Assembly (NCBI RefSeq): GCF_000226975.2
Contig: NZ_CP019286.1
Location: 124,001 to 188,000 of the forward strand
Origin: Halobiforma lacisalsi AJ5
Lineage (GTDB): Archaea > Halobacteriota > Halobacteria > Halobacteriales > Natrialbaceae
Reading direction: 5' to 3'
Length of the DNA: 64,000 nt
Of the stretch, positions 8,181 to 27,918 are shown in pieces. The notes below the pieces were generated by a model that saw nothing but the letters and a program-made list of their open reading frames with translations, did not search any database and was not told the DNA's origin. Within the stretch, counting starts at the first letter, position 1; each line of letters begins with the position of its first letter. The position numbers and the translations under genes are program-made.

Positions 8181-10850
8181 CTATTCGGTAGTGTACTCAG
8201 GCAGCGACGTATCGACACCAAGCATCTTTAGGTACGTCTCGTCTCCAGTTGCCTCAGCAAGTCCTTCGCAGAGTTCCTCGAGATCGTCTGTTTCCCAGCG
8301 CTCCAGATACTTTGTCGAGGATTTACCCTCTTCGAACAGGTAGCGGAGATATTGTGCTTTATCGAGATTGTTGAGATCACGGTCTTCATCACTGACCTTG
8401 TCCTGAATATACGCTTGGCGTTTTTGGTTGTCCCACGTACCTAAGATGAGGTCATTCCCGTCCATAAAGAAGAGTCGCATCTCCTTGAGCCCATCAGGGG
8501 TAGCGTTGGTCCCACGGCAGAGCTTGTTTAGGTCGTTGTACGTCGGTTTCCACTCCTCAAGAAGATCAAGGAAAACATCAATCTCACCAAGGTCACTTTC
8601 TTCTTGGATAATTCCATAGATTTCGTCGACAACCTCCTTTGCGGACATGGTCTCACCATCCCGACGGACTTCGCCGTGGTGGTTCGAATACTCCGCGAAA
8701 CATTCTCCCATTTCAACGACGCCGATATCTCCTGCCGAAAGGTCACGTTCCGCCTCTAGTTGCTCTCGCGTGACTCCTGCAGTTCGAACGATGTTTCGTC
8801 GAAGGGATGTCCAACTGATTGGTTCTCTTTCTATTGCTGGTCTGGCTACGACAATAATATCGAATGAAACTGCTTCTCCCTTAGTTAGCTTCTGAAGATC
8901 TGCAGTAACAGGATACGTTGCGGTGACTACGAATCCCGAATCGCATAGCGCTTCGAGGAGTTCACCCCAAGACTCAGAGTCACTGTGATGATACGTAAAC
9001 GTTAGAACACCATCTTCCTTCAATGCCTTGTGAACGACTTCGAAGGCCTCTCGCAGCTCAGCTTCGAACTCTTCGACCCCCTTATCTTGAGCAGGGTTAG
9101 CGACGATTTCGGACCTCGAAGTCTTGTCCGAACTAAAGCAGTCATACTCGTCCTCGAGGACAATCTTCTGCCACACGTAGAAGAAGTCTGAGAGTTCGGA
9201 ATACAGCACGTTGTCGTAGTACGGCGGATCAGTGATCACCGCATCGTACTCGTTTTCGGCGTCGATATTCCTCAGATCGTCACAGATGACATTCGTATTT
9301 TCTCCGAGTGGAGTATCAAAACCTGGGGTTTCAATGGTTTCTCCATCCTCAATGTACCTATCAGTCGGAGCGTGTGCGTATTCGACAGCTCGTTTTATCA
9401 ATTCAAACTTCCGGTAGAACGGTCCAGTTCCGTGCTTTAGACCCCAGACGTTATTTTCTGCAGGTCGCTGGGGTGGATCAAACGAGTTAGATTTGAAGAT
9501 GTTAGTAATTTGATTATGGACATAATTATATCCAACCATCATATTATTTCTGTTAAGGCATCCAGTGAATGCTAATAGAAGATATTCTTTAATATTCTGG
9601 TCTTCTATTTTATCAATTTCTCGTAATATAGTACTAAGACATAAGAGTTGGCGTTCATTAAACATATCTGCCCAATTTTCATATCCAAACTCTTTGATAT
9701 CGTGGGCTCCTGGGGCAGATCCCTCAAATTTTGTGGATGCAGTATACCAACCATCAGCGATTTTTTCAGTTGGAATATAGTTATGGAGATTCTCCTGCTG
9801 TTTCCATGAATCCTGTGCCGATTCAAAGAGTTCGTGATCACGCAAATCAACCGCTTTATATCCCTTTATATTTGATCTATCTACATTTGATTTATCATCG
9901 CAACTGGAACAATAGTACTCAAGAGCATAAAGACGTAGATCATAATCGCCTTGTTCGTTTATTGCATCTCTGATACCATACTTCTGACCACACTCTTCAC
10001 ACGTATAGTTACCTCCCCGAGTCACATTACCATCCTTAGGGACGAACTTGTGGTTGCAATGGTTACATTCGCAGTCATTTTGCCAATCCTCGACGAGTGT
10101 AATTGATTCGCATTTAGGGCAGTAGACATTGTATTTACCCTTGTTTTCGTATCGACCACGGCCAACACGGTAATCTTCAAACAGTGGAACGGTTTCACCA
10201 CAAGAGATACAGTCTAATTCTTTTACCCATAGATAATACATCACGTCAGCTTCGTGATCACCGTTCGGACATGATGTCTTGTAGTACTGCTTTACTTCAT
10301 CTTCGACCGCCTCTTTGATACCTTGGAAGGCTTCTTCCAACTCTTCAGGATCCGTTGAATGAGCTTCCATCTCTTTCTTTGTTATGAACCACGCAACAGG
10401 ATTAATGTCGTATCCCGTTGCTTCAACACCAAATCGAGATGACTCTCCGAGCGATGTCCCACCACCCATGAATGGGTCAAGGACCTTCTTGTCACTCACT
10501 CGAACGTCCTTTGAATAGAGATCCCAGATTCCCTCTGGATTCGAGAGATCGATATCACGAATTGATTCTCGGATATCGTCGCTTTCAGTGAACATATCGA
10601 GCGTACCGTTCGAACCAGGATCTCGAACTTCGAACTCCGTTTCCTCATCGAGCAAGGTGTATAGAGAGATTGCTCGAAAAACGGATCCTGCACGTCGAGC
10701 CCACCATTTGTGCATACAATAGATCGGCCGATAGTACTCGCGTGCCCCACCGGTCGTTTCTTTTGATGCGATCTCATTGACCCGTTCGATCGGGAATCCG
10801 CGTTCAATAGGGAGTTCGGTCCGGTCACCGGACTGGTGATCCTGCGACAT
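8181..10850 (-). CDS. DUF1156 DNA methyltransferase A
   Basis: 889 aa from the ATG at 10850. The N-terminal DUF1156 signature LPIERGFPIERVNEIA...MHKWWARR is followed by the AdoMet-binding motif DPFMGGGTSL (about 125-134), a long insert with several CxxC zinc ribbons (about 200-330), and catalytic DPPYYDN (about 541-547), the motif of N6-adenine or N4-cytosine amino-methyltransferases. Order motif I, insert, motif IV suits the alpha group. The C-terminal about 250 residues are family-specific. The gene follows the PUA/nuclease-like gene at 10920-11969 by about 70 bp on the same strand, a likely operon. The zinc/insert region is much more AT-rich than its ends: 17 of 60 bases are G or C in 9541-9600. 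Activity and target base are not shown by sequence alone. Confidence 0.93.
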   Translation of the reverse strand: MSQDHQSGDRTELPIERGFPIERVNEIASKETTGGAREYYRPIYCMHKWWARRAGSVFRAISLYTLLDEETEFEVRDPGSNGTLDMFTESDDIRESIRDIDLSNPEGIWDLYSKDVRVSDKKVLDPFMGGGTSLGESSRFGVEATGYDINPVAWFITKKEMEAHSTDPEELEEAFQGIKEAVEDEVKQYYKTSCPNGDHEADVMYYLWVKELDCISCGETVPLFEDYRVGRGRYENKGKYNVYCPKCESITLVEDWQNDCECNHCNHKFVPKDGNVTRGGNYTCEECGQKYGIRDAINEQGDYDLRLYALEYYCSSCDDKSNVDRSNIKGYKAVDLRDHELFESAQDSWKQQENLHNYIPTEKIADGWYTASTKFEGSAPGAHDIKEFGYENWADMFNERQLLCLSTILREIDKIEDQNIKEYLLLAFTGCLNRNNMMVGYNYVHNQITNIFKSNSFDPPQRPAENNVWGLKHGTGPFYRKFELIKRAVEYAHAPTDRYIEDGETIETPGFDTPLGENTNVICDDLRNIDAENEYDAVITDPPYYDNVLYSELSDFFYVWQKIVLEDEYDCFSSDKTSRSEIVANPAQDKGVEEFEAELREAFEVVHKALKEDGVLTFTYHHSDSESWGELLEALCDSGFVVTATYPVTADLQKLTKGEAVSFDIIVVARPAIEREPISWTSLRRNIVRTAGVTREQLEAERDLSAGDIGVVEMGECFAEYSNHHGEVRRDGETMSAKEVVDEIYGIIQEESDLGEIDVFLDLLEEWKPTYNDLNKLCRGTNATPDGLKEMRLFFMDGNDLILGTWDNQKRQAYIQDKVSDEDRDLNNLDKAQYLRYLFEEGKSSTKYLERWETDDLEELCEGLAEATGDETYLKMLGVDTSLPEYTTE

Positions 10851-12618: not shown

Positions 12619-14475
12619 CTATAACCTGAGATACACCCAGAGCGGAATCTGAATGATTGGTTTGGCTCCGTCATCAACGACAGAAATTCCATCGTCTAGC
12701 GATTCTCGAGCGTTCGTCAGTACCACGCCAAACGCTGGTTCGCCATCAAGCACAGACGTTCCGCCATCGTCGAGTGTTCCGGCATACTGCTCATCCTGTA
12801 CGTACTCCCGGCGCTGCTTCGCAAATGAGTCCGGCACGGAACTGTACAAGAGTTCATCGACGCGATCCTGCTCGCTCTCCCAGGCGTCCCCCTCAAGGAA
12901 CTCCTGAAGCGCATCGAATTCAGGGGTATCTACACTCCGCTGGAGTTCGTCGAGACCTCGATTGTAGGACCAGAGCATTGGAATTGGGGTACCATTCAGT
13001 TTGAATACAAAGTCGACGGATTCCTTCGATCCGGCCCAGAACTTGACTACACCGCGTTTCGGATCATGTGGATGATTGAGTTCGTTCGACAGCCGGATCG
13101 TGTGATCGAACGCGACCGCCTTCGCCAGTGCCTCGTCTAGTCCGGGCTCACGCCGGAGCACGTCATTGAGATCATTCCGACAGAACGCGTTCGTGATTCC
13201 TGGATCCCGCAGGTAAAATCGGAGTTTCCGCGGACGCTGATTATCGTACTCTTGTGCTGCCGATAGCAGGTGAAGGCGTGAAAGTACACGGAGATACTTA
13301 TCTCGGAGGGTTCGGCGATCGACATCGAGAACGTCGGTTAGCTCGTCGAAGCGTACATCCCCGGTCGGGTGTTCGTGAGCGGTGAGGGCACAAAACCGCT
13401 CCAAGCCGAGCGCGTCCTTTACCCCTCCAAGATTCGTCGTAGCATGAAGGAGGTCGTTTCTGAAGTCCGTGAGTAGCTCTCGCTGATGGGATTCGAAATC
13501 GACGTCGTCTCGTCCACGGATTATGTCGACAAACTGCTCCTCGTCAATCGAGACGTCGTCTCCGGCGATCCGGAGCGTCAGCGTTCCCCCGCTCGTACAG
13601 TAATTCGCGATCTCCCGCCGGACTGTCGATGAGTCAGTAATGGCGTCGCCGTTCTGGGCTTCAATTTCGGCTACGAATCGGTCAGCGTCCCCCGTTTCGA
13701 CAGCCTCTCGCAACGCCTTTCGAACTGCGTTCTCATCGAATCGTTCAGTTGATGGTGCGAGTTCGATATCCCGGTATCGCATCTTGAGGAAATCGGAGAA
13801 GCCCATGGGATACAGCTCGCGTGTCTCCCCGAGTGGCCCCTCGTTCACTTCTGCAACGTCGGTCTCCTCGAATCGTTCCCGTACGGCTCCTCTCGAAAGC
13901 GCCGTGAACACGATCCGGCGTTCATCGTGCTCAGCAATCAAGTCTGTAAGAAGACGTTCCCAGCGACCGATATCTTGATTTCCGCGTTTGTTCGGACGTT
14001 CAATCGTATGGAGATCATCTAACAGTATGTAGTGGGGCGACGACCGAGGGCGCCGCAGGACGTGCGTCTCGAAGTGGTCCACGGCTGCTCGGAGCTGGTC
14101 TTCCGGCTGAAGTTGGAATACCGGATCATCTCGAAGAGGAATGTACAGAACGTTCGATGGGGGTACGAGGTGGTCTTGAGCCTGTTCACGCCTATCTGCA
14201 TCTCGAACGAACTTCTCTACGAAATCCGGATCAATATGCGCAGAGACTAGTTGCTTGAGGAGGGCGCTTTTCCCAGCCCCGTCAGGCCCGGTAATGGGAA
14301 TCAACCGCCGTTGCTGCTGATGGAGGTCGTCGTATGTCTGGTGAAAAATATTCTGGAGCGATGAATATTCCCCCGTTAGGCTCGCCTCTCGGCTACGCTC
14401 CCACCACGGGTTGTATTCCTCAAGTCGCTGGATGAGAATCTGCCCAGAAGTGAAGGACTCCGAGTCAAATTCCAT
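12619..14475 (-). CDS. AAA-type ATPase with DUF4143-like C-terminus
   Basis: 618 aa. The N-terminal P-loop ATPase has Walker A GPDGAGKS (63-70) and Walker B YILLDD followed by LHTI (about 148). A middle helical region includes a winged-helix-like stretch (TDVLDVDRRTLRDKYLRVLSRLHLL). The C-terminal part (FYLRDPGITNAF, then VKFWAGSKESVDFVF) matches the DUF4143 layout of archaeal and bacterial AAA proteins (COG1373), whose end is a PD-(D/E)XK-like fold; the usual ExK is degraded here to PMLWSY, so nuclease activity is doubtful. It is convergent with the small gene before it and divergent from the McrB-like gene. Its role in the island is unknown. Confidence 0.8.
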   Translation of the reverse strand: MEFDSESFTSGQILIQRLEEYNPWWERSREASLTGEYSSLQNIFHQTYDDLHQQQRRLIPITGPDGAGKSALLKQLVSAHIDPDFVEKFVRDADRREQAQDHLVPPSNVLYIPLRDDPVFQLQPEDQLRAAVDHFETHVLRRPRSSPHYILLDDLHTIERPNKRGNQDIGRWERLLTDLIAEHDERRIVFTALSRGAVRERFEETDVAEVNEGPLGETRELYPMGFSDFLKMRYRDIELAPSTERFDENAVRKALREAVETGDADRFVAEIEAQNGDAITDSSTVRREIANYCTSGGTLTLRIAGDDVSIDEEQFVDIIRGRDDVDFESHQRELLTDFRNDLLHATTNLGGVKDALGLERFCALTAHEHPTGDVRFDELTDVLDVDRRTLRDKYLRVLSRLHLLSAAQEYDNQRPRKLRFYLRDPGITNAFCRNDLNDVLRREPGLDEALAKAVAFDHTIRLSNELNHPHDPKRGVVKFWAGSKESVDFVFKLNGTPIPMLWSYNRGLDELQRSVDTPEFDALQEFLEGDAWESEQDRVDELLYSSVPDSFAKQRREYVQDEQYAGTLDDGGTSVLDGEPAFGVVLTNARESLDDGISVVDDGAKPIIQIPLWVYLRL

Positions 14476-14560
14476 AATTCAGTCTCAATTCTACCATTAA
14501 TCCACATAGCTATGTTTCTTCGCATCCCACTATCTCAGGTCCTTTCCGCTATACATGTTG

Positions 14561-14570
14561 TTTTATAATA
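14561..14570 (+). promoter_or_regulatory. TATA box for the mcrBC-like pair
   Basis: TTTTATAATA lies 23-32 nt upstream of the ATG at 14593. This spacing places transcription start at or next to the start codon, as in leaderless haloarchaeal mRNAs. No Shine-Dalgarno sequence precedes the ATG. Confidence 0.65.
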
Positions 14571-14592
14571 CCTCCCCAGTATTCGTAAGCCA

Positions 14593-15828
14593 ATGAGTAG
14601 CGAGAAGCCTCGATGGGAAAATTATGACCGCGAGGAAGCGGAGAAGTATAGCGGCTTCATACTTGGGTCAGCCTCAACGGCGACAAATTTCATCAATAAA
14701 TCTTCTGATCCGAAAGCATTGAGATATGTGGTTGAAGAACTCACGGTTGATCGAAACGTTTCTGGTGATAATAATGAGGTCAGGAAAGCATTACTAACCT
14801 CGACGGATACACCATTTGAAGTTAAACAGACTGTCGCACAACGGAACTACAACCTGGGTGAGACACTCGTCCCGGATACAGTCAAGAAGAACGCGCTCAC
14901 AGCTATCGAAGTCGGGAAGCCGATCGTTCTCTACGGCCCGACCGGCACCGGAAAGACATACTTCGCTAAGCAGCTTGCACTGGAGGCGTGCATCGACTAC
15001 TCTATCCACACTGCGACGCCAACGTGGACGCCTGCAGATATCACCGGTAGCATCCAACCGGAGACGGACAAGGATGGGGATATCAAGTACCGTCGTCAGG
15101 CTGGTTGCGTCTCACAGGGCATCGAGAAAGCAAACGAGTATCAAGACAACTGGGGAGTCATTATCGACGAAATCACTCGGGCTGATATCTCCCAGGTGTT
15201 CGGTCCGCTGTATACCGCCATCGAGGACGAAGACCAGGTGATATTCCGTAATGACGACGGAGACCCGCTCACGCTCACCGATGACGTCAAGATCATCTGT
15301 ACAATGAATATGTCGGACCGGACGGTGAACGAGCTCGACAATGCAATCACCCGTCGCTTCGCGATGATAGAACTCAGTCGCTACGGTGACGAGGAACGGG
15401 CCTCCCTGTTTGACCGCTGGATCGGAGAACTCGGATCCGATGTGGACATTGATCGCGACAAACTACAGGAACTCTTCGAGAGCCACCACCAAGGGATCAA
15501 TGAGGGGACAACCACGAGCGGTGAGGACGGAATTATGGAGTTCGGGCCGATGCACTACGAAGACGTCACCCAGTTCCTCAAGCACGCCTGTGGGAACGGT
15601 GGACCGTACACAGGTGAAGAAGACGTCGCGGTCGGGCAGGCATTTGCGACCTATATTGCGCCCCGTCTCCTGAACACAGCGGCCTTGCCCCAGATCAATC
15701 GCCTTGCGAGTCACTACGAGACGCTCGACAACCAGTTTGAAGCATTCGACCTCAGTCCCGCTATGAACCTCGCGAACCAGCAAGCAGAGGCTGAGGAACG
15801 CGAGATGGGCGTCAGCGCCTATGAGTAA
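14593..15828 (+). CDS. McrB-like AAA+ (GTPase-type) restriction subunit
   Basis: 411 aa. The AAA+ core has Walker A GPTGTGKT (115-122), Walker B VIIDE (189-193), sensor-1 region TMNMSD and the arginine-bearing TRRF (253-256). The MNxxD element (MNMSD, 238-242) is the McrB signature linked to GTP binding. The first about 105 residues should be the specificity domain that reads modified DNA, but I do not recognise the fold. In McrBC, McrB rings bind modified sites and translocate until McrC cuts. The stop overlaps the start of the McrC-like gene by 8 bp, typical of a coupled pair. A McrBC-type enzyme lying between three methyltransferase genes must avoid their marks or use them. Confidence 0.88.
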   Translation: MSSEKPRWENYDREEAEKYSGFILGSASTATNFINKSSDPKALRYVVEELTVDRNVSGDNNEVRKALLTSTDTPFEVKQTVAQRNYNLGETLVPDTVKKNALTAIEVGKPIVLYGPTGTGKTYFAKQLALEACIDYSIHTATPTWTPADITGSIQPETDKDGDIKYRRQAGCVSQGIEKANEYQDNWGVIIDEITRADISQVFGPLYTAIEDEDQVIFRNDDGDPLTLTDDVKIICTMNMSDRTVNELDNAITRRFAMIELSRYGDEERASLFDRWIGELGSDVDIDRDKLQELFESHHQGINEGTTTSGEDGIMEFGPMHYEDVTQFLKHACGNGGPYTGEEDVAVGQAFATYIAPRLLNTAALPQINRLASHYETLDNQFEAFDLSPAMNLANQQAEAEEREMGVSAYE

Positions 15829-17620
15829 GGCTGTCCGCTACGACTACGGAACGTCGCTCTGCTCCGTCCAGGAGAATCGAAAGCTCATCATCGAGGACTG
15901 CGATCCGGATACGATCAATACCGAACTTCGGGCGGCGAACTTTGTTCGAGAAGGAAGCAAATTCGTCAAGAAGCGGCCTCGACTACGGACTCGATCCGGG
16001 CGAAATACCGATACGGATGCGCTTCAGGTTCTTTCGGTACGCCTCGTAGGTGACACACTCCATGTCAAGCCCTCAGACATCGTCGGCATCGTGAGGCTCG
16101 TCCCGGGGATGAGTGTTCAGGTCGAACCCAAAGTCGATTGGGAGCACGTCATCCAGATGCTCCTTACGGTCTACGACATCGACAGGACGCAGTCGTATTA
16201 TGGGGTTCCACTCGACGAACTGGTGTCCAGCGGCATTGAATCCGCTCGCATTATCGCCATCCTGGCGATCAACTATGTTCGTGGCGTCCGAACGATCCGA
16301 CGCGAGGGGTTCATTCGGGACCTCAATATTCATCGTCGAAACGGATTCGAGGGACTGGGCTCAATCGATGTCGAGCAGACGCTTATGAATCACGCTACCG
16401 GGAATCCGGCCCCGACCTGGGTCGAAACACAGGTCGAGTACGCTAACCCTGTGAATTCGGCGATTCATATGGCCGGGAAACTCCTCCTCAGACTGCTCCA
16501 GCAAGACCAAGACGGTCATCAGCACCCCCGTCAGGATGTGCTTCTTTCCATGGTTCATCAGGAGGTGGAACGGATGGAAGAGTTGGGAATTCAGAGTAGT
16601 CAGAAGCAAATCGGCGGCTATCGCCGGCTCTCCCTCCAAGATCTCCCCCGACAGCGCCATTACTACCGACGAGCCTTCCACACTGCCCAATCAATTCTCT
16701 CCTCGACGTTGCTTGGTCAGGCTGGCGGTGGCCCAGAGGAACTCCTCGTCGATTATGCGCTGAGCATGAATATACTGTTCCAGGATTATTCCAATCGAAT
16801 TCTCAACCGGAAAATCGAAGCCCTACGCCGGATCGACTATCTGGACCAGCTGTCGGGAGTCAAATGTAAACCTGAGCCGTTGATCTATCCCTTTGCTGGA
16901 AACGCCGACGCCCGACATCAACCTGATCACCTCCTCACGGACGGGGAAGAAACGCTCGCGGTACTGGACTCCAAGTATTATCGGGAGGGCAAGAATCCAG
17001 CTAACGATTCTGGGTCCCGATCGAGGATGTTTGCGTACGCCTATCTCACAGAGACCGACCGGATGGCATTCCTCTGCCCCCAGTATCGCAATGTTCGGCT
17101 ACCCGTACAACACACTGGGGCAGAGATAGAGGTCGTTTCGCCTGACGGTGACTTCACTTGTGAGGACTACGAGGATGGGATCCGAAAGTATATTTTGGAG
17201 ACGCTGGCGATCAGCTATCCTGAGCTCCACGTTTTCGAGGCGACGACCGATGCGCACCTCAGTCTCAGTGGCGTTTCAGAGGAGGCCCTCTCGGAGGTCC
17301 ACGATACGAACGGCCCGTTTAGTATCAGCAATCCCGCCACGTTCGCTGACCGGGTCATCGCGGCGATTGCATTTGCGTCCTATGGACCAAACAAACCGGA
17401 ACTAGAGAATCAGGGCCGGTGGACAAAGTCCCGAATCAAAGAGGCATGTGCAAAGACCGATGAGGAAGACCATCCAAAATACCCGCAACATGAGACGACG
17501 TGCGTTCCGATATACGATCCTGGCGGGAATGACGACCATGGGACTGTGACTTTGCACTTCCTCAAGTCAGACCAAGAGGGAACCTCAGTAAGCACAGAAG
17601 GGCCATTTCCCCTGATGTAA
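15821..17620 (+). CDS. McrC-like PD-(D/E)XK restriction endonuclease subunit
   Basis: 599 aa, longer than E. coli McrC (about 350). The C-terminal nuclease core is visible as P368-D369, then LAVLDSKYY with D383 and K385, matching PD-x(n)-D-x-K of McrC; YLTETDRMAFLCPQY follows as expected for the core helix and strand. The N-terminal part (VGIVRLVPGMSVQVEPKVDW, then VLLTVYDI-like) matches the McrC domain that contacts McrB. An extra about 150 residues after the nuclease core (from about 450) is not in short McrC proteins. It overlaps the McrB-like gene by 8 bp. The key residues look intact. Confidence 0.85.
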   Translation: MSKAVRYDYGTSLCSVQENRKLIIEDCDPDTINTELRAANFVREGSKFVKKRPRLRTRSGRNTDTDALQVLSVRLVGDTLHVKPSDIVGIVRLVPGMSVQVEPKVDWEHVIQMLLTVYDIDRTQSYYGVPLDELVSSGIESARIIAILAINYVRGVRTIRREGFIRDLNIHRRNGFEGLGSIDVEQTLMNHATGNPAPTWVETQVEYANPVNSAIHMAGKLLLRLLQQDQDGHQHPRQDVLLSMVHQEVERMEELGIQSSQKQIGGYRRLSLQDLPRQRHYYRRAFHTAQSILSSTLLGQAGGGPEELLVDYALSMNILFQDYSNRILNRKIEALRRIDYLDQLSGVKCKPEPLIYPFAGNADARHQPDHLLTDGEETLAVLDSKYYREGKNPANDSGSRSRMFAYAYLTETDRMAFLCPQYRNVRLPVQHTGAEIEVVSPDGDFTCEDYEDGIRKYILETLAISYPELHVFEATTDAHLSLSGVSEEALSEVHDTNGPFSISNPATFADRVIAAIAFASYGPNKPELENQGRWTKSRIKEACAKTDEEDHPKYPQHETTCVPIYDPGGNDDHGTVTLHFLKSDQEGTSVSTEGPFPLM

Positions 17621-17633
17621 GTCGTTGATGGTG

Positions 17634-18029: not shown

Positions 18030-18064
18030 GCCACCACCAACGTCTCACAGGGGTGTAAAATATG

Positions 18065-20692
18065 TTAGTCTCTGAGGAGCTGACGGAACGTCTCGTCCCC
18101 AGTGATGTCCGCAAGTTCAGATGCAACGTCCATCATTTCGCCAGTAACCTCCAGTTCACGGCGACCATCCCTCAGTTTGGTTTCGTCATCAGCGTCGTAT
18201 CTGAGGAGCTGTACTTGTCCAAGAGCAGAGAGTTCGTCAGGGTCCTTAGCTTGGAGGTAGGAAAGCCGTTGCTCATCGTGCCATCGTAACAGCGTGAAGC
18301 CGTCTGCGGTGTCGAAAAGCGCCCGTTCCTGGAGGTCATTTGGGCTAATCTGTGTTCCTCTGCACAGGCGGTTCACATCGTTAAGTGTGGGGTTCTTCAT
18401 TGCTAAGAGACTCAGATAGATTTCGTCGGGAGAAACGTCACCGGCGATGATGTCATAGATCTCGGCGACAACATCACTAGCGGACATGACCGTTCCGTCG
18501 CGGTGGACCTTTCCGTGATGGTTTGAATACTCACGGAAACACCGTCCAAGTTCGACGACGTTGATATCGCCTTCGGAGATGGTTTGTCCTTCCCGAATCT
18601 CCTCCCGTGTCCGTTGAGCAGTCCTGTGCATCTGCCGTCGGAGTGCAGACCAACTGATCGGGTCGCGATCCGACGCAGGTCGTGCGACCACGATCACGCT
18701 GAAGCTGAGCCCGTCACCCATTACGAACTCGCTGAGATTGGCCGAAATTGGATACGTCGCAGTTACGTCAAATCCTTCGTCGCACAGTGATTCTAGGAGC
18801 ATCCCCCAGGACTCTTTCCCGCTGTGACGATACGTGAAGGCGAGGATGCCATCGTCTTTTAGCACGTCACCCATCCGCGAGAACGACTGCTTGAGCTCCC
18901 TCTCGAAGGTAGCTCCGTCTTTGTCGATAGCCGGATTCGCGACGATACTCTCTTCGCGAGGCGTCGTTTCGGGGTTGAAGCAGGGATACTCGTCGGCTAG
19001 AAGCAGCCGTTGCCAGACGTAAAAGAAGTCTGAGACCTCTGAATAGACGACATTGTCGTAGTATGGGGGATCAGTGATGATAGCGTCGTACTCCGATTCG
19101 AGCTCGACGTCCCGGACGTCGCCTTGGTGGAGTGTGTACTCGCCTCCGACTGGGTTCTCAAACGAAGCCGTCTCTTTAAGCTCTCCGTCCTCGAGGTAGC
19201 GTTCCGTCGGATGGTGGGCGAACTCGACGGCATTGACGATTTTCTCCCATGTATTCTTGAACGTGCCTCGGCCAGCTCTGGTTCCCCAGACGTTGTTTTC
19301 CGCATACTCAACCTGGGGTTGGTAGGTGTTCTGTCTGAAGATCCCCTCGATTTTCGTTCCGGAGATATTATAGATGGAAAAGTTATTCTGGAACATCAAG
19401 GAATCGCTGAAGGCGAGGAGGAGATACTCCTTGATAGTCTGATCGTCGACGTCATCGATTGCAGAGAGCAGCGTCGAAAGACAGTAGAGCTGGCGATCAT
19501 TGAACATGTCCGACCACGTCTCGTAGCCGTGGCGGAAGACATCGTTTCCATTTATTCGAGATGCTGCTGTGATCGCGCCTTCGGGGATTTCGCCCTGTGG
19601 GACATACGCCTTCAGGTCCTCTGCAGAGTGCCACGCCTCGCTGGTGCGATCGAACTTGGTACGGTCTTCCTCGGTCGCCGCTTTGTAACCCTTGTAGGTA
19701 GACCGCTCTTTGCCTTCATCCTCACATGACCGACAGTAGTATTCGATCGCATAGAGCTCTTCAGTATACGATTGTCCGTCGGCAATCGCGTCAACAATGG
19801 GGTACTGCAAGCCACACGACGAACAACCGTAATTACCGCCTCGCGTCACTGGGCCGTTCGCTGGAACGAACTCGTGTCCGCACTCGGTGCAGATAGACTC
19901 ACTACGATAATCATCGGTCAGGAAGACCGATTCACACTCAGGACAGTAGACGTTGTACTTGTCATCATTCTCGTAGCGACCGTTTGCGACACGGTAATCT
20001 TTGAATAGTGGAATCGTCTCCCCACAGGACGTGCAGTCTAGTTTCCGTACCCAGAACGCATAGACGATGTCTGCAACGTGATCTTCATCGTGAGGGCAGG
20101 CTGTCTTGTAGTGGGACTGGAGTTCGTCAGCGACAGCTGTTCTGACATCCTCGAAGGCCCGTTGAAGCTCGTCAATATCGACCTCATGAGCTTCGAGTTC
20201 CTTCTTGGAGATGAGCCATGCAACCGGATTCAGGTCGACACCGGTGACGTCAGCCCCAAAGCGGATGGCCTCCATGAGACTCGTTCCGCCACCCATGAAC
20301 GGATCGAGGACGGTTTTCCCGTCGACGCGAATGTCTTTCGGATACAGCTCCCAGAGCGCGTCTGGATTAGTGAGACTGACCGCCTCGATGAGATCAGAGA
20401 GATCCTCAGCGGCGATGTCTTCTGAATCTCCGTCGCCGAAATCGGATAGATTCAGATTTTCCTGATCTGCAGTGTGGATTTCAACGGCGCTGGGATCATC
20501 GACTAACGAGTACAGAGAGATCGCCCTGAACACGCTCCCGAGCCGTCTGGCCCACCACTTGTGCATGGTGGACAGCGGCCGATAGTACATCTTGGCGCGT
20601 CCCTCTCGATCAGCGAGATCGTTCACCTGCTCGATAGGGAATCCCCGTTCGATAGGGAGCGTATCCCGCGAGTTCGCATCCGGGTCAGACAT
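18065..20692 (-). CDS. DUF1156 DNA methyltransferase B
   Basis: 875 aa. It has LPIERGFPIEQVNDLA and MHKWWARR (about 50), AdoMet motif DPFMGGGTSL, zinc ribbons in the insert (CTSCGE, CPEC, CTECGHEF, CSSCGLQYP, CRSC) and catalytic DPPYYDN (541-547). All core residues are present. It lies 39 bp after the DUF499 ATPase gene on the same strand; DUF499 and DUF1156 genes are known neighbours in other prokaryotes. Unlike copies A and C, its composition is evenly GC-rich through the insert (36 of 60 bases G or C in 18961-19020), suggesting longer residence or a different donor. Probably N6-adenine or N4-cytosine methylation; target unknown. Confidence 0.93.
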   Translation of the reverse strand: MSDPDANSRDTLPIERGFPIEQVNDLADREGRAKMYYRPLSTMHKWWARRLGSVFRAISLYSLVDDPSAVEIHTADQENLNLSDFGDGDSEDIAAEDLSDLIEAVSLTNPDALWELYPKDIRVDGKTVLDPFMGGGTSLMEAIRFGADVTGVDLNPVAWLISKKELEAHEVDIDELQRAFEDVRTAVADELQSHYKTACPHDEDHVADIVYAFWVRKLDCTSCGETIPLFKDYRVANGRYENDDKYNVYCPECESVFLTDDYRSESICTECGHEFVPANGPVTRGGNYGCSSCGLQYPIVDAIADGQSYTEELYAIEYYCRSCEDEGKERSTYKGYKAATEEDRTKFDRTSEAWHSAEDLKAYVPQGEIPEGAITAASRINGNDVFRHGYETWSDMFNDRQLYCLSTLLSAIDDVDDQTIKEYLLLAFSDSLMFQNNFSIYNISGTKIEGIFRQNTYQPQVEYAENNVWGTRAGRGTFKNTWEKIVNAVEFAHHPTERYLEDGELKETASFENPVGGEYTLHQGDVRDVELESEYDAIITDPPYYDNVVYSEVSDFFYVWQRLLLADEYPCFNPETTPREESIVANPAIDKDGATFERELKQSFSRMGDVLKDDGILAFTYRHSGKESWGMLLESLCDEGFDVTATYPISANLSEFVMGDGLSFSVIVVARPASDRDPISWSALRRQMHRTAQRTREEIREGQTISEGDINVVELGRCFREYSNHHGKVHRDGTVMSASDVVAEIYDIIAGDVSPDEIYLSLLAMKNPTLNDVNRLCRGTQISPNDLQERALFDTADGFTLLRWHDEQRLSYLQAKDPDELSALGQVQLLRYDADDETKLRDGRRELEVTGEMMDVASELADITGDETFRQLLRD

Positions 20693-20731
20693 GATTGATG
20701 GTGGCCCCGCTTTCGTATTTGAAGATTGGCG

Positions 20732-23700
20732 TCATTCGAACTGGATGGTGATGTCGATGCTCGTGGCAGACTCGGGGATGTTCTCCAGAATGTCGGCGAC
20801 GATCTCGTGAGATTGTCCGAGTTCGAGCTGAAGATCCGTGTGTGCCTGCTGGAACTCAGCGACACCTTGGAGTCCGCCTGGTGCTGCGTCTTCGCCCTCA
20901 GTGTTGAACGAGAGCGATCCGTAGGAGACAGAGCCAGACTCGTGTGATTCGTTCCACTCCTGGCGCATCTCAGCTGGACTGTCGCCCTGATATTCGAAGG
21001 TCCAGCCCTCTTCCGGAGGGATACGGAAGCCAGCGCCGGGGAACCAGTCTGCTGGATCCTCCGAACCCGTCGCGCCGACGACGTAGTGCGGGTCCTCTTT
21101 CCCAAGGTTGGAGAGCAGGAAGTGCTTGACTGCAGCTTCGGGTTCCCCTGCCGCGCAGTCACTCTGGATCGACTGCACCTGGAAAGTAGCTTCCTCCTCG
21201 AGGTCGCCGATATAGTTCAGGATGCGCTCACCGATGTCATCGGGAACCATCGGAGCAACGACAACAGAGGTCGGATCACGATCGCCGAGGGTACTGACAT
21301 AGTCACCTCCGGTTTTGAGTTTGTATCCTTCGGAGAGGAGCGTACTTACTGCGCTGCGGAACGCAGACTCGGTGTTGTCCTGCGGGAGATACACTTCCGT
21401 GTCGTTGCGAATGGTCGTCAGCACCTGGCTGGTGTCAGCTTCTCCGGCGGCATCAACCGTCTCCTCGAAGCGATCACGAACCTCGTTCGGGCCGATCGTC
21501 TCAGCGTCCGAGACGTCGCGGAGCGTTGCGTCCCAGCGCACCTTGTCAAGGATTTCATTCCCACTGACGAGGACGTAGTGGTCCTCGTTTGTCAGCCGCC
21601 CAGCAGCCATCATGACGGCGTCTTTCGGGTCCTGATCGTGGATCCATACATCAGTACGCTTGCGAAGGTCGAGTTCGAACTGCTCTAGGTCGACCTCCTT
21701 CTTTCCCGCACCGAATCGACCACGGAGTTCGGATTCGACTTCTTCGGTCGACCACTTCTCGACGTCGTTCTCCAGAACGAGCACCGTGTCCTGAGTCAGA
21801 CCACGGAGTTCGTCCTTGAAGCCGCTGCCGTCGTGGGCCAGAATCGGTTTATCCTCTAGCCCGTCTTCGACGGCGTTGACAACCGCTTGGACGCTCCCCG
21901 GGATGGGATACGTTGGGTCCATTAGGAACTGCTCGTAGATGTCGTCGATGGTCGTCTCGGAACGGCTATCGAGGCGATCGCGGACGATATCCCAGACGTG
22001 GCGCTGGAGGTCGAAGGGGTCCGCTTCCGCCGCTGCAGCGATGTTACTGGCGTTGAGGACGGGCTCGGTAGCGACGAAGTTCTCCAGCGACATCTCGGCC
22101 GCGTAGTCGAACTCATTGAGAAGGTCGTCACCGTCGATGATTTCTCCGTAGGCGCTCTCCAGGCGCTCTAGGAGGTCGTCCTCGTACTCGTCGTGAAGCT
22201 TTGCAATCTCCTCGCGGATCTCATCGGCCAAGTTTTCGTCCTGCTTTCGGATCTCCGCACCGATGACCTCCTTGGCTTTCCCAAGGAACTTCTCCTGCTG
22301 CGAGGTGGGCGAGATCGTCTTGCCGTTTTTCGGCTGGACGAATACGAGCGTGTTCCGCCACTGCCGACCAGCAGGCTGATTCTTGATGATCTCACCGACG
22401 CTATCCTCATCCCAAGGACCGTTTTTCACGACGGTTTTTATGTTCTGACTGTCGGGAACGTTCTCGAGTTCGCCGTCGACGTTGAACCCGACCGCGTGTG
22501 CGCCCGAGCCAAACAGCGTTTCGACCTTGTCGCCGACGAGTTCGATCGCGTCTTCGTCGTCAACGTCACGGGCGGCGTTTTTCACAAGCGAGCGCGGGTT
22601 CTCATCCTCGCGGATGACGTAGCGGTCGTCGGAGCGCCAGAGGTGGTAGACCTCGCCTTGGAGGCGCTCGAGGTCGACGATGATGTCGTTGATGCGGTCG
22701 CCAGCGTGATAGGTTCCGATGACGATGTCGGAAGTGGTCGCGCCTTCCGCGAGTCCCGGCGTGAGCGAGTAGATGAGAACGGTACTGAGGATAGGCCGGC
22801 CGTAGGAGATGTCCGCGTCCGCGAGGCGCTCTCGGATGTCGTCGTAACACCGATCCGGCCGGGAATGTTCGACGTTGATCCGGGTGAGTTCGTCATTGTA
22901 CTCGACGGCGTCGACTGCGCCGTGCGTGATGAGGTCAGTGTCCTGGTACTGGTCAACGAGTACCTTCGCGAAGAGATAGAGCATCCCCCGGGTTGCCCCT
23001 GACTCGGTTTCCGCGAAGTAGCGGGTTTTCAGCGAGTCGATGAGGATCGGGTGGAACGGGTAGGTATCGTACATTTCCTCGCGGAGGCCGTCCGGAAGAT
23101 CGACGTAGTCCGTATCCGCGTAGGCTTCGATGTACTGGTCGACGAGCGTGCGCATCGCCGACCGGTCGTTGATAGAGTCAACGAGTCGGTGACGGAGGAC
23201 CTCCCGGATGTCGACCTGATTGGACATGTTGACCTCGACGCGCTGCTGGCGCGACAGGATATCATGGACGTCCGACCCCTCGCGAAGGACGGAAACGAAC
23301 GAATAGAGTTCAGTATCGGGGCTCGTGGACGTTTCGAGTAGAGCCTGGAGAAAGCCCTTGTTTGCACCCTTGCGCTGGCCTTTGAGCGCCTGGAAAAAGT
23401 CCTCGAGCTCATCCATGAAGAACGCAACCGTACGGTCACCCACCGCGTCCTTGATGACGTCTATCGTAGGGTAGCCTCCCTCGTCGTCGTATTCGCTTTC
23501 ATCTGGTTCGTAGTCAAGTGCGTCGAACAGCGGCTCCCAGAGGTACTGGTATTGTTTTTTCTGGAGCGAGACGACGATCGGAACAGCGTCGTCAGGAAGC
23601 GCATCACCGAGGCCCTCGATTCGGCCATCGGCCCAATCGCTGACGACATCGGGGGATTGGAAACAGTGGTACATCGCCACCATCTGGTGAGATTTACCGG

Positions 23701-23965
23701 TCCCGTACGGACCGTACATCTCGTGTATGCGCGTGTTGTCCTCTCCCTCAAGGGTGTCACGGAGGCGCTTCATCGAGTCCTCCAACCCACCAGTCAGAAG
23801 CGTGCGATCAAAAAATCTCTCCGCATCAGATTCCAGCGTGTCGGCATCACTGTCGACATCGTAGAGGCGAATCTGACCTTTGATCAGGCTGCCGCCCTCA
23901 GTAAGTTCTGGGCTGAGCGTCAGCACGTCATCGATTTTTGTGTTGAGAGTTCCTTCTGCGCTCAT
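20732..23965 (-). CDS. DUF499-type large P-loop ATPase
   Basis: About 1077 aa from the ATG at 23965 (MSAEGTLNTK); an in-frame ATG at 23980 is also possible. Walker A is GPYGTGKS (about 85-92) and Walker B TVAFFMDELEDF (about 179-190). The pattern YPFHPILIDSL around 310 and the long helical middle match DUF499 proteins (COG1483), ATPases found beside DUF1156 methyltransferases and helicases in defence islands. The C-terminal about 150 residues are beta-rich. It is first in a three-gene operon with methyltransferase B and the 131-aa protein. A TATA-like TTTCATAAG lies about 30 nt upstream of the chosen ATG, fitting leaderless expression. It probably powers loading or movement of the methyltransferase/restriction complex on DNA; inferred. 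Confidence 0.88.
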   Translation of the reverse strand: MSAEGTLNTKIDDVLTLSPELTEGGSLIKGQIRLYDVDSDADTLESDAERFFDRTLLTGGLEDSMKRLRDTLEGEDNTRIHEMYGPYGTGKSHQMVAMYHCFQSPDVVSDWADGRIEGLGDALPDDAVPIVVSLQKKQYQYLWEPLFDALDYEPDESEYDDEGGYPTIDVIKDAVGDRTVAFFMDELEDFFQALKGQRKGANKGFLQALLETSTSPDTELYSFVSVLREGSDVHDILSRQQRVEVNMSNQVDIREVLRHRLVDSINDRSAMRTLVDQYIEAYADTDYVDLPDGLREEMYDTYPFHPILIDSLKTRYFAETESGATRGMLYLFAKVLVDQYQDTDLITHGAVDAVEYNDELTRINVEHSRPDRCYDDIRERLADADISYGRPILSTVLIYSLTPGLAEGATTSDIVIGTYHAGDRINDIIVDLERLQGEVYHLWRSDDRYVIREDENPRSLVKNAARDVDDEDAIELVGDKVETLFGSGAHAVGFNVDGELENVPDSQNIKTVVKNGPWDEDSVGEIIKNQPAGRQWRNTLVFVQPKNGKTISPTSQQEKFLGKAKEVIGAEIRKQDENLADEIREEIAKLHDEYEDDLLERLESAYGEIIDGDDLLNEFDYAAEMSLENFVATEPVLNASNIAAAAEADPFDLQRHVWDIVRDRLDSRSETTIDDIYEQFLMDPTYPIPGSVQAVVNAVEDGLEDKPILAHDGSGFKDELRGLTQDTVLVLENDVEKWSTEEVESELRGRFGAGKKEVDLEQFELDLRKRTDVWIHDQDPKDAVMMAAGRLTNEDHYVLVSGNEILDKVRWDATLRDVSDAETIGPNEVRDRFEETVDAAGEADTSQVLTTIRNDTEVYLPQDNTESAFRSAVSTLLSEGYKLKTGGDYVSTLGDRDPTSVVVAPMVPDDIGERILNYIGDLEEEATFQVQSIQSDCAAGEPEAAVKHFLLSNLGKEDPHYVVGATGSEDPADWFPGAGFRIPPEEGWTFEYQGDSPAEMRQEWNESHESGSVSYGSLSFNTEGEDAAPGGLQGVAEFQQAHTDLQLELGQSHEIVADILENIPESATSIDITIQFE

Positions 23966-24290
23966 ATCTGTCTGACACAATGGCCGACCATCTTATGAAA
24001 GTATGTATCTTTACCGCTGTCAACTTCAGCTATCCAGCTGTTACCGATTTCAGATTAGCCTAAAAGAATATATTCAACATTATAATGTCTATTAGACCAT
24101 TCTCAGGGCAGTTATCGTGGAGAACACCATACGATCGACACAGAAGAAAGGAACTCTACCAAGTTGAGGCCTATTGTGTGTCTATTCAGGGTCCACCGTA
24201 GACAGCTGTCAATTAGTTTTCCAAATCTCTACTGAGTAGACTCTAAACTGGTTAGTAAAAACTATTACTTAGTAGTGTATTGGTAGAGGT
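23966..24290. promoter_or_regulatory. AT-rich divergent promoter region between the DUF499 operon and the 197-aa gene
   Basis: 325 bp without a gene. Near 23990-24005 is a TATA-like element for the DUF499 operon on the minus strand. On the plus side AAAACTATTACTTAGTAG (24257-24274) precedes the ATG at 24291 by about 20-30 nt. An imperfect inverted pair, CTACTGAGTAGACTC and TTACTTAGTAG, lies at 24229-24274 and could be an operator. Nothing else was seen. Confidence 0.5.
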
Positions 24291-24884: not shown

Positions 24885-24886
24885 CG

Positions 24887-25261
24887 ATGTCATCGCAAAT
24901 CGAGCACCAAGATGAACAGCAACGAATCGCAGAACTCGAGCAACGAGTAGCTACACTTGAACGCCTCCACGACGACCAGATACTCGAGTGGGCACGGCGG
25001 AAACAGCAGGGCCACGAGGAAGCCAAACGTCGCGATGCCCGCGAAAAGCTTGAGACTGGCGAGGTACGGACGATCGTCATTCAGAGTCCGCCTGGCGAGG
25101 AAGGGCCGGACGCGTTCGCGAAAATAGAGGGAGTCGCCACATTCGTCGACCCGGCGGGGCAGGATCTGCCGAGTGGTGCTACCGTCCAGGCAAAGCTGAC
25201 TGACGTTCGAGAAAGTTCCGCAAACGCGATCGCCCTCGAGGTCCTCGACGACCAGCCCTAG
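24887..25261 (+). CDS. Coiled-coil plus TRAM/OB-like small protein
   Basis: 124 aa. Residues about 5-50 form a basic/acidic coiled coil (RIAELEQRVATLERLHDDQILEW). Residues about 60-122 (GPDAFAKIEGVATFVDP then LPSGATVQAKLTDVRESSANAIALEVL) fit a TRAM-type beta-barrel, which binds RNA or DNA. It follows the 197-aa gene by 2 bp and its last 4 bp overlap the end of methyltransferase C on the other strand. It may be an accessory nucleic-acid-binding subunit; the family call is by eye. Confidence 0.65.
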   Translation: MSSQIEHQDEQQRIAELEQRVATLERLHDDQILEWARRKQQGHEEAKRRDAREKLETGEVRTIVIQSPPGEEGPDAFAKIEGVATFVDPAGQDLPSGATVQAKLTDVRESSANAIALEVLDDQP

Positions 25262-27918
25262 TCCTCAGTGAACTCGAGCAGAGACGTATCGACACCGAGC
25301 ATCTTCAGGTATGTGTCGTCACCCGTAGCCTCGGCAAGTCCCTCACAGACGTCTTGGAGTTCGTCAGTATCCCACTGCTCGAGATATTCACTCGTCGACT
25401 TGTCCTGTTCGAAGCGGTACCGGAGGAAGTGTGCTTTATCGAGAGCAGTGAGATCACCATTGTCCTCCTGGACCTTGCTCTGGACGTAGGCCTGGCGTTT
25501 TTTGTCAGCCCAATCACAGAGATTGAAGTCACCACCGTCCACATCGAATAGCACCATCTCTCTCATGGATTTTTCAGCGGCGTCAGAGCGTTTGAGGTGC
25601 TTATTCAGACTATCATATGTAGGCTGTCGTTCCTCAAGAAGATCCAGATACACATCCTGCTCACCACGTTCCCCCTTCTGTATGATTCCGTAAATTTCAT
25701 CGACGACTTCTTTCGCCGTCATACCTTCTCTAGCTCCTCTGATTTGATTATGATGCTTAGAATATTCTTGGAAGCACTTCCCCATCTCGATCACACCGAT
25801 ATCCCCTCCGGTAAGATCCCTATTTTTCTCAAGTGTTTCACGTGTTTCTTGAGCCGTTCTTACGATTTGACGACGCAAAGAATTCCAAGAAATCGGAGTA
25901 GTAGAATCAATAGGACGAGCTACAATTACGATATCAAAAGCTACAGCTTCGTCTTTATTGAACTTGTTCAGATCAGAATTTATTGGGTAAGTGGCTGTCA
26001 CTTCAAAGCCGTTCTCACAAAGCGATTTCAGAAGTTCACCCCAAGACTCTTCGTCACTGTGATGATATGTGAACGCGAGAACACCGTTTTCCTTGAGGGC
26101 CTTATTTATGACATTCAGTGCTTCTCCCATCTCGTGTTCAAAATCATCAGCGGTCTTATCAAGATGTGGATTAGTTACGATAGATTCGGTTCTCGGAGTC
26201 TGATCCCGATCAAATCCGGGATAAACATCTTCCAGAAGGATCTTTTGCCAGACATAAAAATAATCAGCAACCTCCGAGTAGATTATATTATCATAGTACG
26301 GAGGATCAGTGATAACAGCATCAAATTCAGATTCAGCAGTAATATTACGCATATCATCCTGATATATTTGGGCGTTCAAACCTATCGGTTGAGAGAATTC
26401 TTCTGTTTCGAGAGTTTCTCCATCTTCCCTATATCGTTCAGTGGGGGAACCAGCATATTCGACACCGTTCTTTACCATATCCCACATTGCGGTGAACGTT
26501 CCTGTCCCGAATTTAGTACCCCAAACATTATTCTCCACGGGAAGTTGGGGGGAGACAAACGAGTTTTTATTAAATAGATTAGAAATGAGATTTTTGCCAG
26601 GATTATACGAAGTCATTATGGTATTATAGTTTAGTGCTTCAGATAGAGCTAGTAGTAAATATTCTCTAGCAGGATTTTCTATATCATCAATAGACTTCAT
26701 CAGCTTTGAGAGGCAAAGCAGCTGCCTCTCATTAAACATATCTGTCCAGTCTTCCAGACCATGTTGAAAGACATCATTTCCACTTACCGAAGAGGCCGCT
26801 GTAATCGCTCCCTCAGGGATCGGTTCATGTGGAACAAATTCATGTAGATCAGTACGAGTTTGCCATTCGCGTTTAGCATCTTCGAACAGATTCTTATCAC
26901 GCCCATCAGCCCCTTTGTAGCTTTTGTACTCGCTCTTCGAATGGCCCTGTGTATCACACTCAGAACAATAATACTCCACAGCATAGAGACGTTGGTTGGG
27001 TTTCCCCTGAGAGGCTATAGCATCGGTTATAGATTCCTTTTGGCCACATTTGGGACAGGTGTAGTAACCCCCCCGAGTAACATGACCGTTTTTCGGGACG
27101 AATTGGTTGTTACAGTGATCGCATTCACTTTTATCCTGCCAATCATCCACTAGCGTAACTCCTTCACAATCAGGACAGGATACATAATATTTGTCTTTAT
27201 TTTCGCCATACCGACCTTTGGCTACGCGATAATCTTTGAACAACGGGACTGTGTGACCACATGAAACACAATCTAGTTCTTTATACCAGAAGTTGTATAT
27301 CACATCAGCATCGTGGTCGCCGTGAGGACAAGATGTTCGATAGTATTTTTGAATTTCGTTGGCAACCTCCTCTTTTATTTCTTCAAATGCTTCTTCAAGC
27401 TGGTCTACATTAGTCTGTCCGGCTTCAAGTTGCATTTTCGTGACAAACCATGCGACAGGATTCAGGTCTATACCGACAGATTCCACGCCGAATCGAGATG
27501 CTTCAACCAGAGAGGTTCCTCCTCCCATAAAGGGGTCGAGAATTTTCTGATTCTTAATCCGGACATCTTTAGTGTAAAAATCCCAGAGCGATTCGGGATC
27601 ATCCATAGATATCTGCGATATTGCCTCAATGAGGTCATCCTTGCCGAGACCATTGTTACCGAGCGTTTGATTTTCACCTGGATCATACACATCTATCCCC
27701 TCAGAGGAAGTCCGGTCGTTGAGGAGCGTGTAGAGTGTAATAGCACGAAAAAGGCATCCTGGGCGACGTGCCCACCATTTATGCATCGTGTATATAGGCC
27801 GGTAATGCTGCTTGGCCAGCCCCTCTTTCTCAGCGATTTCGTTCACCCGCTCAATCGGGAAGCCACGTTCGATAGGGAGTTCAGAACGACCTTCCTCTCG
27901 TGGTTGCTGCTCAGACAT
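25258..27918 (-). CDS. DUF1156 DNA methyltransferase C
   Basis: About 886 aa from the ATG at 27918 (MSEQQPREEG); upstream in-frame ATGs at 27933 and 27948 are alternatives. It has LPIERGFPIERVNEIA, MHKWWARR, AdoMet motif DPFMGGGTSL, zinc ribbons (CVSCGH, CPDC, CDHC, CPKCGQ, CSEC) and catalytic DPPYYDN (about 538-544). It looks closer to copy A than to B by eye (for example the shared ending TYLKMLGVDTSL). Much of 25.6-27.4 kb is AT-rich and uses ATA and AGA codons (19 of 60 bases G or C in 26581-26640), unlike the surroundings, pointing to recent transfer. It follows the DUF3883 GHKL gene on the same strand; before the ISH8-type insertion the two were about 65-95 bp apart. Confidence 0.93.
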   Translation of the reverse strand: MSEQQPREEGRSELPIERGFPIERVNEIAEKEGLAKQHYRPIYTMHKWWARRPGCLFRAITLYTLLNDRTSSEGIDVYDPGENQTLGNNGLGKDDLIEAISQISMDDPESLWDFYTKDVRIKNQKILDPFMGGGTSLVEASRFGVESVGIDLNPVAWFVTKMQLEAGQTNVDQLEEAFEEIKEEVANEIQKYYRTSCPHGDHDADVIYNFWYKELDCVSCGHTVPLFKDYRVAKGRYGENKDKYYVSCPDCEGVTLVDDWQDKSECDHCNNQFVPKNGHVTRGGYYTCPKCGQKESITDAIASQGKPNQRLYAVEYYCSECDTQGHSKSEYKSYKGADGRDKNLFEDAKREWQTRTDLHEFVPHEPIPEGAITAASSVSGNDVFQHGLEDWTDMFNERQLLCLSKLMKSIDDIENPAREYLLLALSEALNYNTIMTSYNPGKNLISNLFNKNSFVSPQLPVENNVWGTKFGTGTFTAMWDMVKNGVEYAGSPTERYREDGETLETEEFSQPIGLNAQIYQDDMRNITAESEFDAVITDPPYYDNIIYSEVADYFYVWQKILLEDVYPGFDRDQTPRTESIVTNPHLDKTADDFEHEMGEALNVINKALKENGVLAFTYHHSDEESWGELLKSLCENGFEVTATYPINSDLNKFNKDEAVAFDIVIVARPIDSTTPISWNSLRRQIVRTAQETRETLEKNRDLTGGDIGVIEMGKCFQEYSKHHNQIRGAREGMTAKEVVDEIYGIIQKGERGEQDVYLDLLEERQPTYDSLNKHLKRSDAAEKSMREMVLFDVDGGDFNLCDWADKKRQAYVQSKVQEDNGDLTALDKAHFLRYRFEQDKSTSEYLEQWDTDELQDVCEGLAEATGDDTYLKMLGVDTSLLEFTED

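Follow-up and report, generated by a model that had tools for sequence, protein, structure and literature searches.

Probable exchange of AT-rich centres at two of three methyltransferase slots in a haloarchaeal BREX-related defence cassette

The closest described relatives of the locus examined here are the DUF499-centred BR systems, also known as Hma (HmaA helicase, HmaB methyltransferase, HmaC ATPase), which have in common with it a DUF499 ATPase, an SNF2-type helicase and a DUF1156 N6-methyltransferase in which a nested insert with CxxC zinc fingers separates motifs I and IV (PMC12839542, PMC8565338; citations here and below refer to excerpts of the sources). The insert of BR methyltransferases has been called a target-recognition domain (PMC12839542), and the excerpts on BR/Hma do not mention its exchange. 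Our subject is a cassette of this kind with three methyltransferase genes, A, B and C, in a stretch of 64,000 nucleotides of Halobiforma lacisalsi AJ5 (NZ_CP019286.1, positions 124,001 to 188,000; hereafter the window) that is part of a 216-kb contig (C2) in a 4.38-Mb haloarchaeal genome. The same gene set was found in many haloarchaea, mostly with one methyltransferase and, in the relatives of this cassette, with 2 or 3.

Swapping of recognition modules has been described in other methyltransferases. In modA of Type III restriction-modification systems (Neisseria, Haemophilus), conserved 5' and 3' regions enclose a highly variable recognition domain that is exchanged en bloc, and in modA12 the GC content of this domain is significantly below that of both ends (PMC3311624). 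The present family resembles modA in its conserved ends, variable centre, incongruent centre and end trees and low-GC module; it differs in being archaeal and BREX-related (bacteriophage exclusion), in an alpha-like motif order (I, insert, IV) and in an exchanged block that takes in the motif-IV half of the catalytic core. Recombined recognition domains also change specificity in Helicobacter pylori, where domain movement (DoMo) in Type I and Type III systems takes place within and between genes of one species (PMC3983042), whereas here alleles cross genera and families of haloarchaea. The pglX genes of the Escherichia coli HS and Salmonella StySA BREX loci have a locally divergent recognition part in an otherwise conserved locus (PMC9009780), but in BrxX/PglX the recognition domain follows the methyltransferase core, towards the C-terminus (PMC12839542), and here it is nested. 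Literature searches aimed at this point, covering listings and excerpts of PMC12839542, PMC6471742 and PMC12988326 but not subscription papers, turned up no account of comparable exchange for DUF1156, BR/Hma or haloarchaeal methyltransferases, and an archaeal, BREX-related, multi-slot form of recognition-module swapping appears to be new.

All three methyltransferases (875-896 aa) are encoded on the minus strand: A at 8181..10868 (895 aa; PF06634 E=1.2e-5, an N6_N4_Mtase end, HmaB E=1.8e-30), B at 18065..20692 (875 aa) and C at 25258..27948 (896 aa; PF06634 E=9.3e-11, HmaB E=8.7e-37). HmaB models are the nearest in profile searches and PF06634 is above cut-off in each, while the NF042963 scores of 145.5 (A), 136.3 (B) and 146.5 bits (C) all lie under the 1000-bit cut-off. 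Likewise the DUF499 ATPase (20732..23980, minus strand; PF04465 E=1.5e-9, HmaC E=1.5e-19) is above the PF04465 cut-off, but with 58.9 bits far under the 1200-bit cut-off of NF042962, and the SNF2 helicase (5243..7027, minus strand; PF00176 E=2.1e-34) is matched better by the DrmD (E=1e-80) and BrxH models than by HmaA (E=1.8e-58). In BR Types 1 and 2 a nuclease is fused to the helicase (PMC12839542); the short helicase found here (594 aa) had no nuclease match in Pfam, nearby nucleases not having been searched by fold. The PglZ of BR Type 3 was not found above cut-off anywhere in the genome, the one match (23.1 against 25 bits) lying on another contig. Judged by sequence profiles, the three core proteins place the cassette with BR/Hma, although the PglZ of Type 3 is missing. 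It differs from BR/Hma in having three methyltransferases per cassette, a conserved MoxR/McrC-like pair and a 131-aa protein.

Comparison with the nearest cassette found, on a Natronorubrum bangense plasmid (G467, NZ_CP031308.1), gives the most direct view of exchange. Most of the backbone is 92-99% identical (DUF499 98%, McrC 99%, B 97% (96.7%), SNF2 97%), and identity at fourfold degenerate sites is 0.90-0.94 in B, DUF499, McrC and the NOV-like gene; C is only 72% identical. This difference is unevenly spread along C: nucleotide identity is 0.96 over codons 1-30, about 0.5-0.8 over codons 31-810 and 0.82-0.93 after codon 811, and fourfold identity runs from 0.86 in codons 1-30 through 0-0.6 to 0.70 at codons 811-870. 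The block bounded by these shifts (codons ~31-810) covers 25519..27858 on the minus strand; its ends and flanks are about 82-98% identical to N. bangense. C sits in an exchangeable 'C slot' upstream of DUF499. A occupies a corresponding 'A slot' between the SNF2 helicase and an AAA/DUF4143 gene, where the segment 7002..12621 does not align to N. bangense although the blastn blocks on either side (2590-7001 and 12622-26542) are 92-93% identical. In N. bangense this slot is about 3.1 kb long and holds one methyltransferase, in the opposite orientation and 55% identical to A; elsewhere the slot is empty (G412, G202, G043) or, as in N. bangense, inverted (G260). The A-slot methyltransferase of G260 (L095:4000-7365) is split into two open reading frames (ORFs) with G+C at third codon positions (GC3) of 0.32-0.33.

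Halorientalis litorea (G167, NZ_CP095484.1) provides a more distant cassette in which the three methyltransferases can be compared. Here B has a fourfold identity of 0.64, A of 0.38 and C of 0.27 (Fisher p 1e-10 and 3e-20), and the backbone genes have 0.59-0.68. Because A and C fall below B and the backbone, they were not inherited with the cassette; B, which is 88% identical in amino acids, evolves with the backbone. The orthologues of A in H. litorea and in G409 are 78% and 82% identical to it, and against the former its identity per 20 residues is 0.20-0.60 at residues 321-400 and 0.65-1.0 over nearly all the rest. The patch of A most unlike its orthologues (codons ~301-400) lies at 9669-9968, minus strand. 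A pair of C-type genes within genome G114 is 0.28 identical at residues 421-480 and 0.70-0.94 elsewhere, which points, at least in sequence, to these residues as the core of the recognition module.

The same pattern extends across the family. Two candidates were scored per genome, so paralogues may be missing; we kept matches with at least 780 aligned residues, counted identical genes once and dropped fragments. Among 96 homologues (4560 pairs), middle identity was below 0.6 in 909 of the 985 pairs with C-terminal identity above 0.85, and in 430 of the 502 pairs selected in the same way on the N-terminus; for a set of 79 homologues the C-terminal criterion gave 532 of 621. At fourfold sites, 253 of the 271 pairs with C-terminal identity of at least 0.65 had a middle below 0.40, so ancestry, and not protein constraint alone, explains the divergence of the centres. 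Clustering the 96 genes at 75% identity yields 70 clusters for the centre and 22 for the C-terminus. For approximately unbiased (AU) tests on 77 of 79 rows we set aside L062_1480, a duplicate of another sequence, and L098_13692, a long one; every one of the four segment alignments rejected the trees built from the remaining three (p <=0.0041, log-likelihood differences 554-3144), with fast trees and 1000 replicates, on which the program issued a warning. Breaks in identity cluster at residues 220-260 and 300-340 on the left (418 pairs) and at 620-720 on the right (898 pairs).

For comparison with the backbone we used the 28 of 42 loci that have a DUF499 gene and exactly one methyltransferase. 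Identity of DUF499 correlates with that of the C-terminal segment (Spearman rho 0.70) and much less with that of the middle (0.20), and GC3 behaves similarly (r 0.59 and 0.31; values 0.76 for DUF499, 0.81 for the C-terminal part and 0.47 for the middle). In these single-methyltransferase loci the C-terminal part is resident and tracks the backbone. Individual pairs illustrate the contrast: Halorussus marinus and H. halobius have a DUF499 identity of 1.00 and methyltransferase ends at 0.94-0.95, but a middle at 0.60 (0.30 at fourfold sites), and between Haloferax sulfurifontis, for which two comparisons come without a DUF499 identity, and Halopenitus malekzadehii the ends are 0.97-0.98 and the middle 0.50 identical. 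Haloferax elongans and H. sulfurifontis likewise combine equal ends with unlike centres. Whole alleles are also common to different families (e.g. L043/L048/L052, middle 0.87-0.91). The methyltransferases of Halorussus halobius (L120) and Halorhabdus salina (L121), one shared gene whose two loci both stood in the list for the DUF499 comparison with their mutual pair left out, are identical over residues 60-700, which suggests recent transfer between genera. Domain swapping, raised in a preliminary description of the window, therefore receives strong support from mutually rejected segment trees, from the difference between flanks and centres at fourfold sites and from the near-direct N. bangense case; on sequence grounds, the family-wide pattern supports the swapping of target-recognition modules.

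AT-rich centres in A and C, but not in B, had first drawn attention to these genes. The G+C counts reported then are exact (17 of 60 at 9541-9600, 19 of 60 at 26581-26640 and 36 of 60 at 18961-19020 in B); of the overlapping 60-base windows in the 64 kb, 0.41% contain at most 17 and 1.03% at most 19. We shuffled synonymous codons 2000 times per gene, keeping protein and codon usage, and scored GC3 in windows of 100 codons. The range in A (0.39) was reached by 0 of 2000 shuffles, with a minimum of 0.26 at codons 356-455 (9504-9803) inside an AT-rich core at codons ~301-466 (9472..9968, minus strand), and that in C (0.35) had p=0.001, with a minimum of 0.29 at codons 361-460 (26569-26868). The range was not significant in B (0.19, p=0.71) or in the DUF499, SNF2, NOV-like and AAA genes (p=0.28-0.67). 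Taken by itself, the absolute minimum in C is not significant either (p=0.21), since the gene is poor in G+C over almost its whole length. Whole-gene GC3 is 0.46 in A and 0.42 in C against 0.55-0.73 in five other tested genes; the contrast with B stands, but AT-richness is not confined to the centres, which are only the deepest part of genes that are AT-rich against their neighbours. In C the AT-rich stretch runs from codon ~35-60 to ~800, and GC3 falls into three zones (0.54 / 0.26-0.48 / 0.63-0.64) with boundaries approximately those of the exchanged block. Because nucleotide identity and GC3 shift at about the same places, the AT-rich stretch of C coincides with that block.

A GC valley is usual in the family, although not universal. 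In C numbering, mean GC3 of the 79 aligned homologues is 0.60-0.73 up to residue ~240, about 0.50-0.58 at 300-660 and 0.75-0.79 after 720. The 72 non-B genes average 0.64 / 0.52 / 0.78 in the N-terminal, middle and C-terminal parts (0.63 / 0.49 / 0.79 at fourfold sites only), a mean valley of 0.19 in figures that pool genes of differing kinship; B-type genes (n=7) have no such valley in GC3. A middle lower than the ends by more than 0.10 occurs in 76% of 86 non-B methyltransferases and in none of 8 B-type genes; among controls from the same loci it occurs in none of 39 DUF499 genes and in 4% of 55 further long ORFs. Valleys are alike in close relatives, as a property of the family, and the phylogeny is not uniform; of the two signs that the preliminary description would have taken for ordinary divergence, only the similar GC profiles were seen.

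The methyltransferases follow the order motif I, insert, motif IV, with invariant CxxC pairs. Conservation was read from alignment A1 (38 rows of 44 candidate references, i.e. 41 plus three window proteins), whose first row omits the initial methionine of C, making A1 numbers one lower than the residue numbers given here. In C, all on the minus strand, motif I (DPFMGGGTS, nearly all invariant) lies at 27511..27537, the zinc-ribbon part that opens the motif I-IV insert at 26956..27330, motif IV (DPPYYDN, with DPPYY and N invariant) at 26287..26307, and the C-terminal helical domains (residues 690-896) at 25261..25881. One structure was predicted, that of C, with a predicted local distance difference test score (pLDDT) of 81.7. 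In this model a Rossmann-like core is matched over model range 28-679, the zinc-ribbon part is strand-rich, motif IV coincides with a core strand at 541-546, and helices follow residue 687. Matches to solved structures cover the methyltransferase core only (best Trm11, Z 17.0, root-mean-square deviation 2.8, 175 residues aligned); among the matches listed there was no solved relative of the insert, which is not evidence for a new fold. Placed on the model, the left cluster of breakpoints falls inside the insert, close to the zinc ribbons and partly in them, and the right cluster near the border of the methyltransferase core and the C-terminal helices.

The zinc ribbon itself, over which the mosaic was initially thought mainly to lie, is rejected as the swapped part: its CxxC pairs (C residues ~227-331) are invariant across the 38 sequences, and the family trough, at residues ~300-690, starts late in or beyond the ribbon and takes in motif IV. 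The zinc ribbons are not the swapped core, and the exchanged block reaches into the motif-IV half. The exchanged insert would presumably be the target-recognition domain.

Taken together, we consider it highly probable, as one joint statement resting on comparative sequence data, that A, B and C all belong, as methyltransferases, to a single haloarchaeal BREX-related (Hma/BR-like) defence cassette, that C underwent allelic exchange between breakpoints near codons 31 and 811, that A was exchanged at the level of the slot, orientation and whole gene differing in N. bangense, and that a constant backbone with exchange of centres at slots A and C is the best explanation of the whole. The comparisons show the backbone (SNF2, coiled-coil protein, DUF499, B, 131-aa protein and MoxR/McrC-like pair) passing on as one unit and slots A and C taking up varied alleles. 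On this explanation, homologous recombination in the conserved gene ends replaces the centre, which comprises the portion of the insert that follows the zinc ribbons, the catalytic core's motif-IV half and sometimes the N-terminus too; A also has a diverged core patch of ~100 codons. With AT-rich centres arriving between resident ends that agree with the host cassette, each recombined gene shows a GC valley. Low GC may in turn reflect circulation in a shared pool, largely of haloarchaeal plasmids, that outpaces amelioration. The C-terminal domains, matched to the resident backbone, may maintain the contacts to the other components, and each swap may change the methylated adenine motif treated as self, a variety that selection by viruses and plasmids could favour. 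The DNA words marked as self by this system are probably changeable.

Exchange could have occurred without any import of AT-rich DNA if biased gene conversion enriched the often-recombining conserved ends in G+C while heterologous centres, unable to pair, drifted to A+T in place. This is a live rival for the AT-richness of the centres, favoured by C-terminal GC3 (0.81) exceeding that of DUF499 (0.76) at the 28 loci and by valleys in most sampled genera. We nevertheless hold it to be distinctly the less probable account: GC3 is uniformly high, centre included (0.85-0.89), in L098_3890, L103, L106 and L099_9093, and Halonotius genes have equally low GC3 in N-terminus and centre (0.34-0.45) and step up at the C-terminus only, which imported blocks fit better. 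Those GC-rich genes without a valley also indicate that the valley is not a protein need. With the B-type genes, they speak against a function of the AT-rich centre in DNA or mRNA (an internal promoter, translation pausing, or avoidance of the enzyme's own sites), an idea to which we give very little credence even though the valley lies at the same place in many genes.

Transfer of entire AT-rich methyltransferases into the slots does hold for the A slot, which is empty or inverted in some genomes, and agrees with the alleles common across families; as the sole mode it is improbable, given the intragenic breakpoints of C against N. bangense and C-termini that track the host backbone where centres do not. 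Ordinary divergence without recombination, through a recognition part evolving faster under diversifying selection and with relaxed codon selection, would account for the middle having the lowest conservation (mean identity 0.51, compared with 0.62-0.69). It appears highly improbable, however, since in the same gene pairs fourfold sites are saturated in the centre but those of the ends are well conserved, the segment trees are rejected, and breaks in identity are concentrated at residues 220-340 and 620-720.

Several observations weigh against exchange of the centres as we have proposed it. The N. bangense copy of C is interrupted by an IS66-type insertion (split over L197-L198) and is therefore probably non-functional now, and the A-slot flanks are less alike to N. 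bangense (fourfold SNF2 0.66, AAA 0.78) than the other backbone genes (0.90-0.94). The GC valley of A recurs in its orthologues in H. litorea and G409, so its AT-rich core does not look like a recent import into this genome, contrary to what had been suggested. No donor sequence was found for the centre of A or C, and for C residues 421-540 the best 60-residue matches reach at most ~0.67-0.73 outside one orthologue pair. In addition, the pair counts share genes and so are not independent, the same centre on clearly different ends occurs in few and moderate cases, and in 14 of 72 non-B genes the middle is not lower than both ends.

As to the source of the modules, plasmid records gave 58 matches, the best 12 of them haloarchaeal at 57-72% identity. 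Nothing close was found in viruses: 28 relatives on viral contigs are 21-31% identical, and 1 of 50,697 phage records matched weakly. We also rejected exchange driven by insertion sequences (IS), as the IS66-type element inside the N. bangense C, with its apparent 8-base duplication, looks like a later insertion.

This family bears on how a BREX-like system changes specificity without killing its host, and it offers a natural series with the same backbone, the same ends and dozens of centres, many of its members being in named culture-collection strains. An intragenic GC valley can mark recognition-module exchange, and so provides a cheap screen for the same process elsewhere. More tentatively, the cassette may be a plug-in specificity machine with one backbone of ATPase, helicase and MoxR/McrC-like effector, a fixed B and sockets A and C fed from a cross-family haloarchaeal pool, a reading that we judge somewhat less likely than not. 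If it is true, self would be a combination of up to three motifs that can be changed singly, leaving the effector untouched; the McrC-like protein is a possible effector.

The remaining partners are arranged around the slots. Between A and B lie the AAA and DUF4143 protein that adjoins the A slot (12619..14475, minus strand; PF13635 E=1.1e-8), a MoxR-like AAA ATPase (14593..15828, plus strand; PF07728 (AAA_5) E=2.7e-14, 'MoxR' being our own label), its weak McrC-like partner (15821..17620, plus strand; PF10117 E=4e-4, below the curated cut-off) and the 131-aa protein (17634..18029, minus strand; 93% identical in H. litorea and 96% in N. bangense). B is the constant partner of the DUF499 ATPase. 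A coiled-coil-rich protein adjoins SNF2 as its conserved partner (4057..5370, minus strand; start probably near 5250). A 349-aa protein (10920-11969) adjoins A within the segment that does not align to N. bangense; it has no Pfam, NCBIfam or PADLOC match, and in H. litorea no homologue is listed at the corresponding position.

The cassette has a TmtA/sacsin-like gene on either side (2578-3855 and 29669-32368), the second with a NO VEIN C-terminal domain and 97% identical in N. bangense. The defence island is bracketed by two IS copies in the same orientation (981-2589 and 36395-37999) that are 99.9% identical and belong to an element annotated as IS66 family in N. bangense, where a third near-identical copy is the one that interrupts C. 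From our reading of the ends, apparent 8-base target duplications occur at the first copy and at the N. bangense copy, and none at the second. A further AT-rich stretch lies at 53001-55000 (GC 0.39-0.44), where the minus strand carries two ORFs, one of 275 aa and one of 194 aa.

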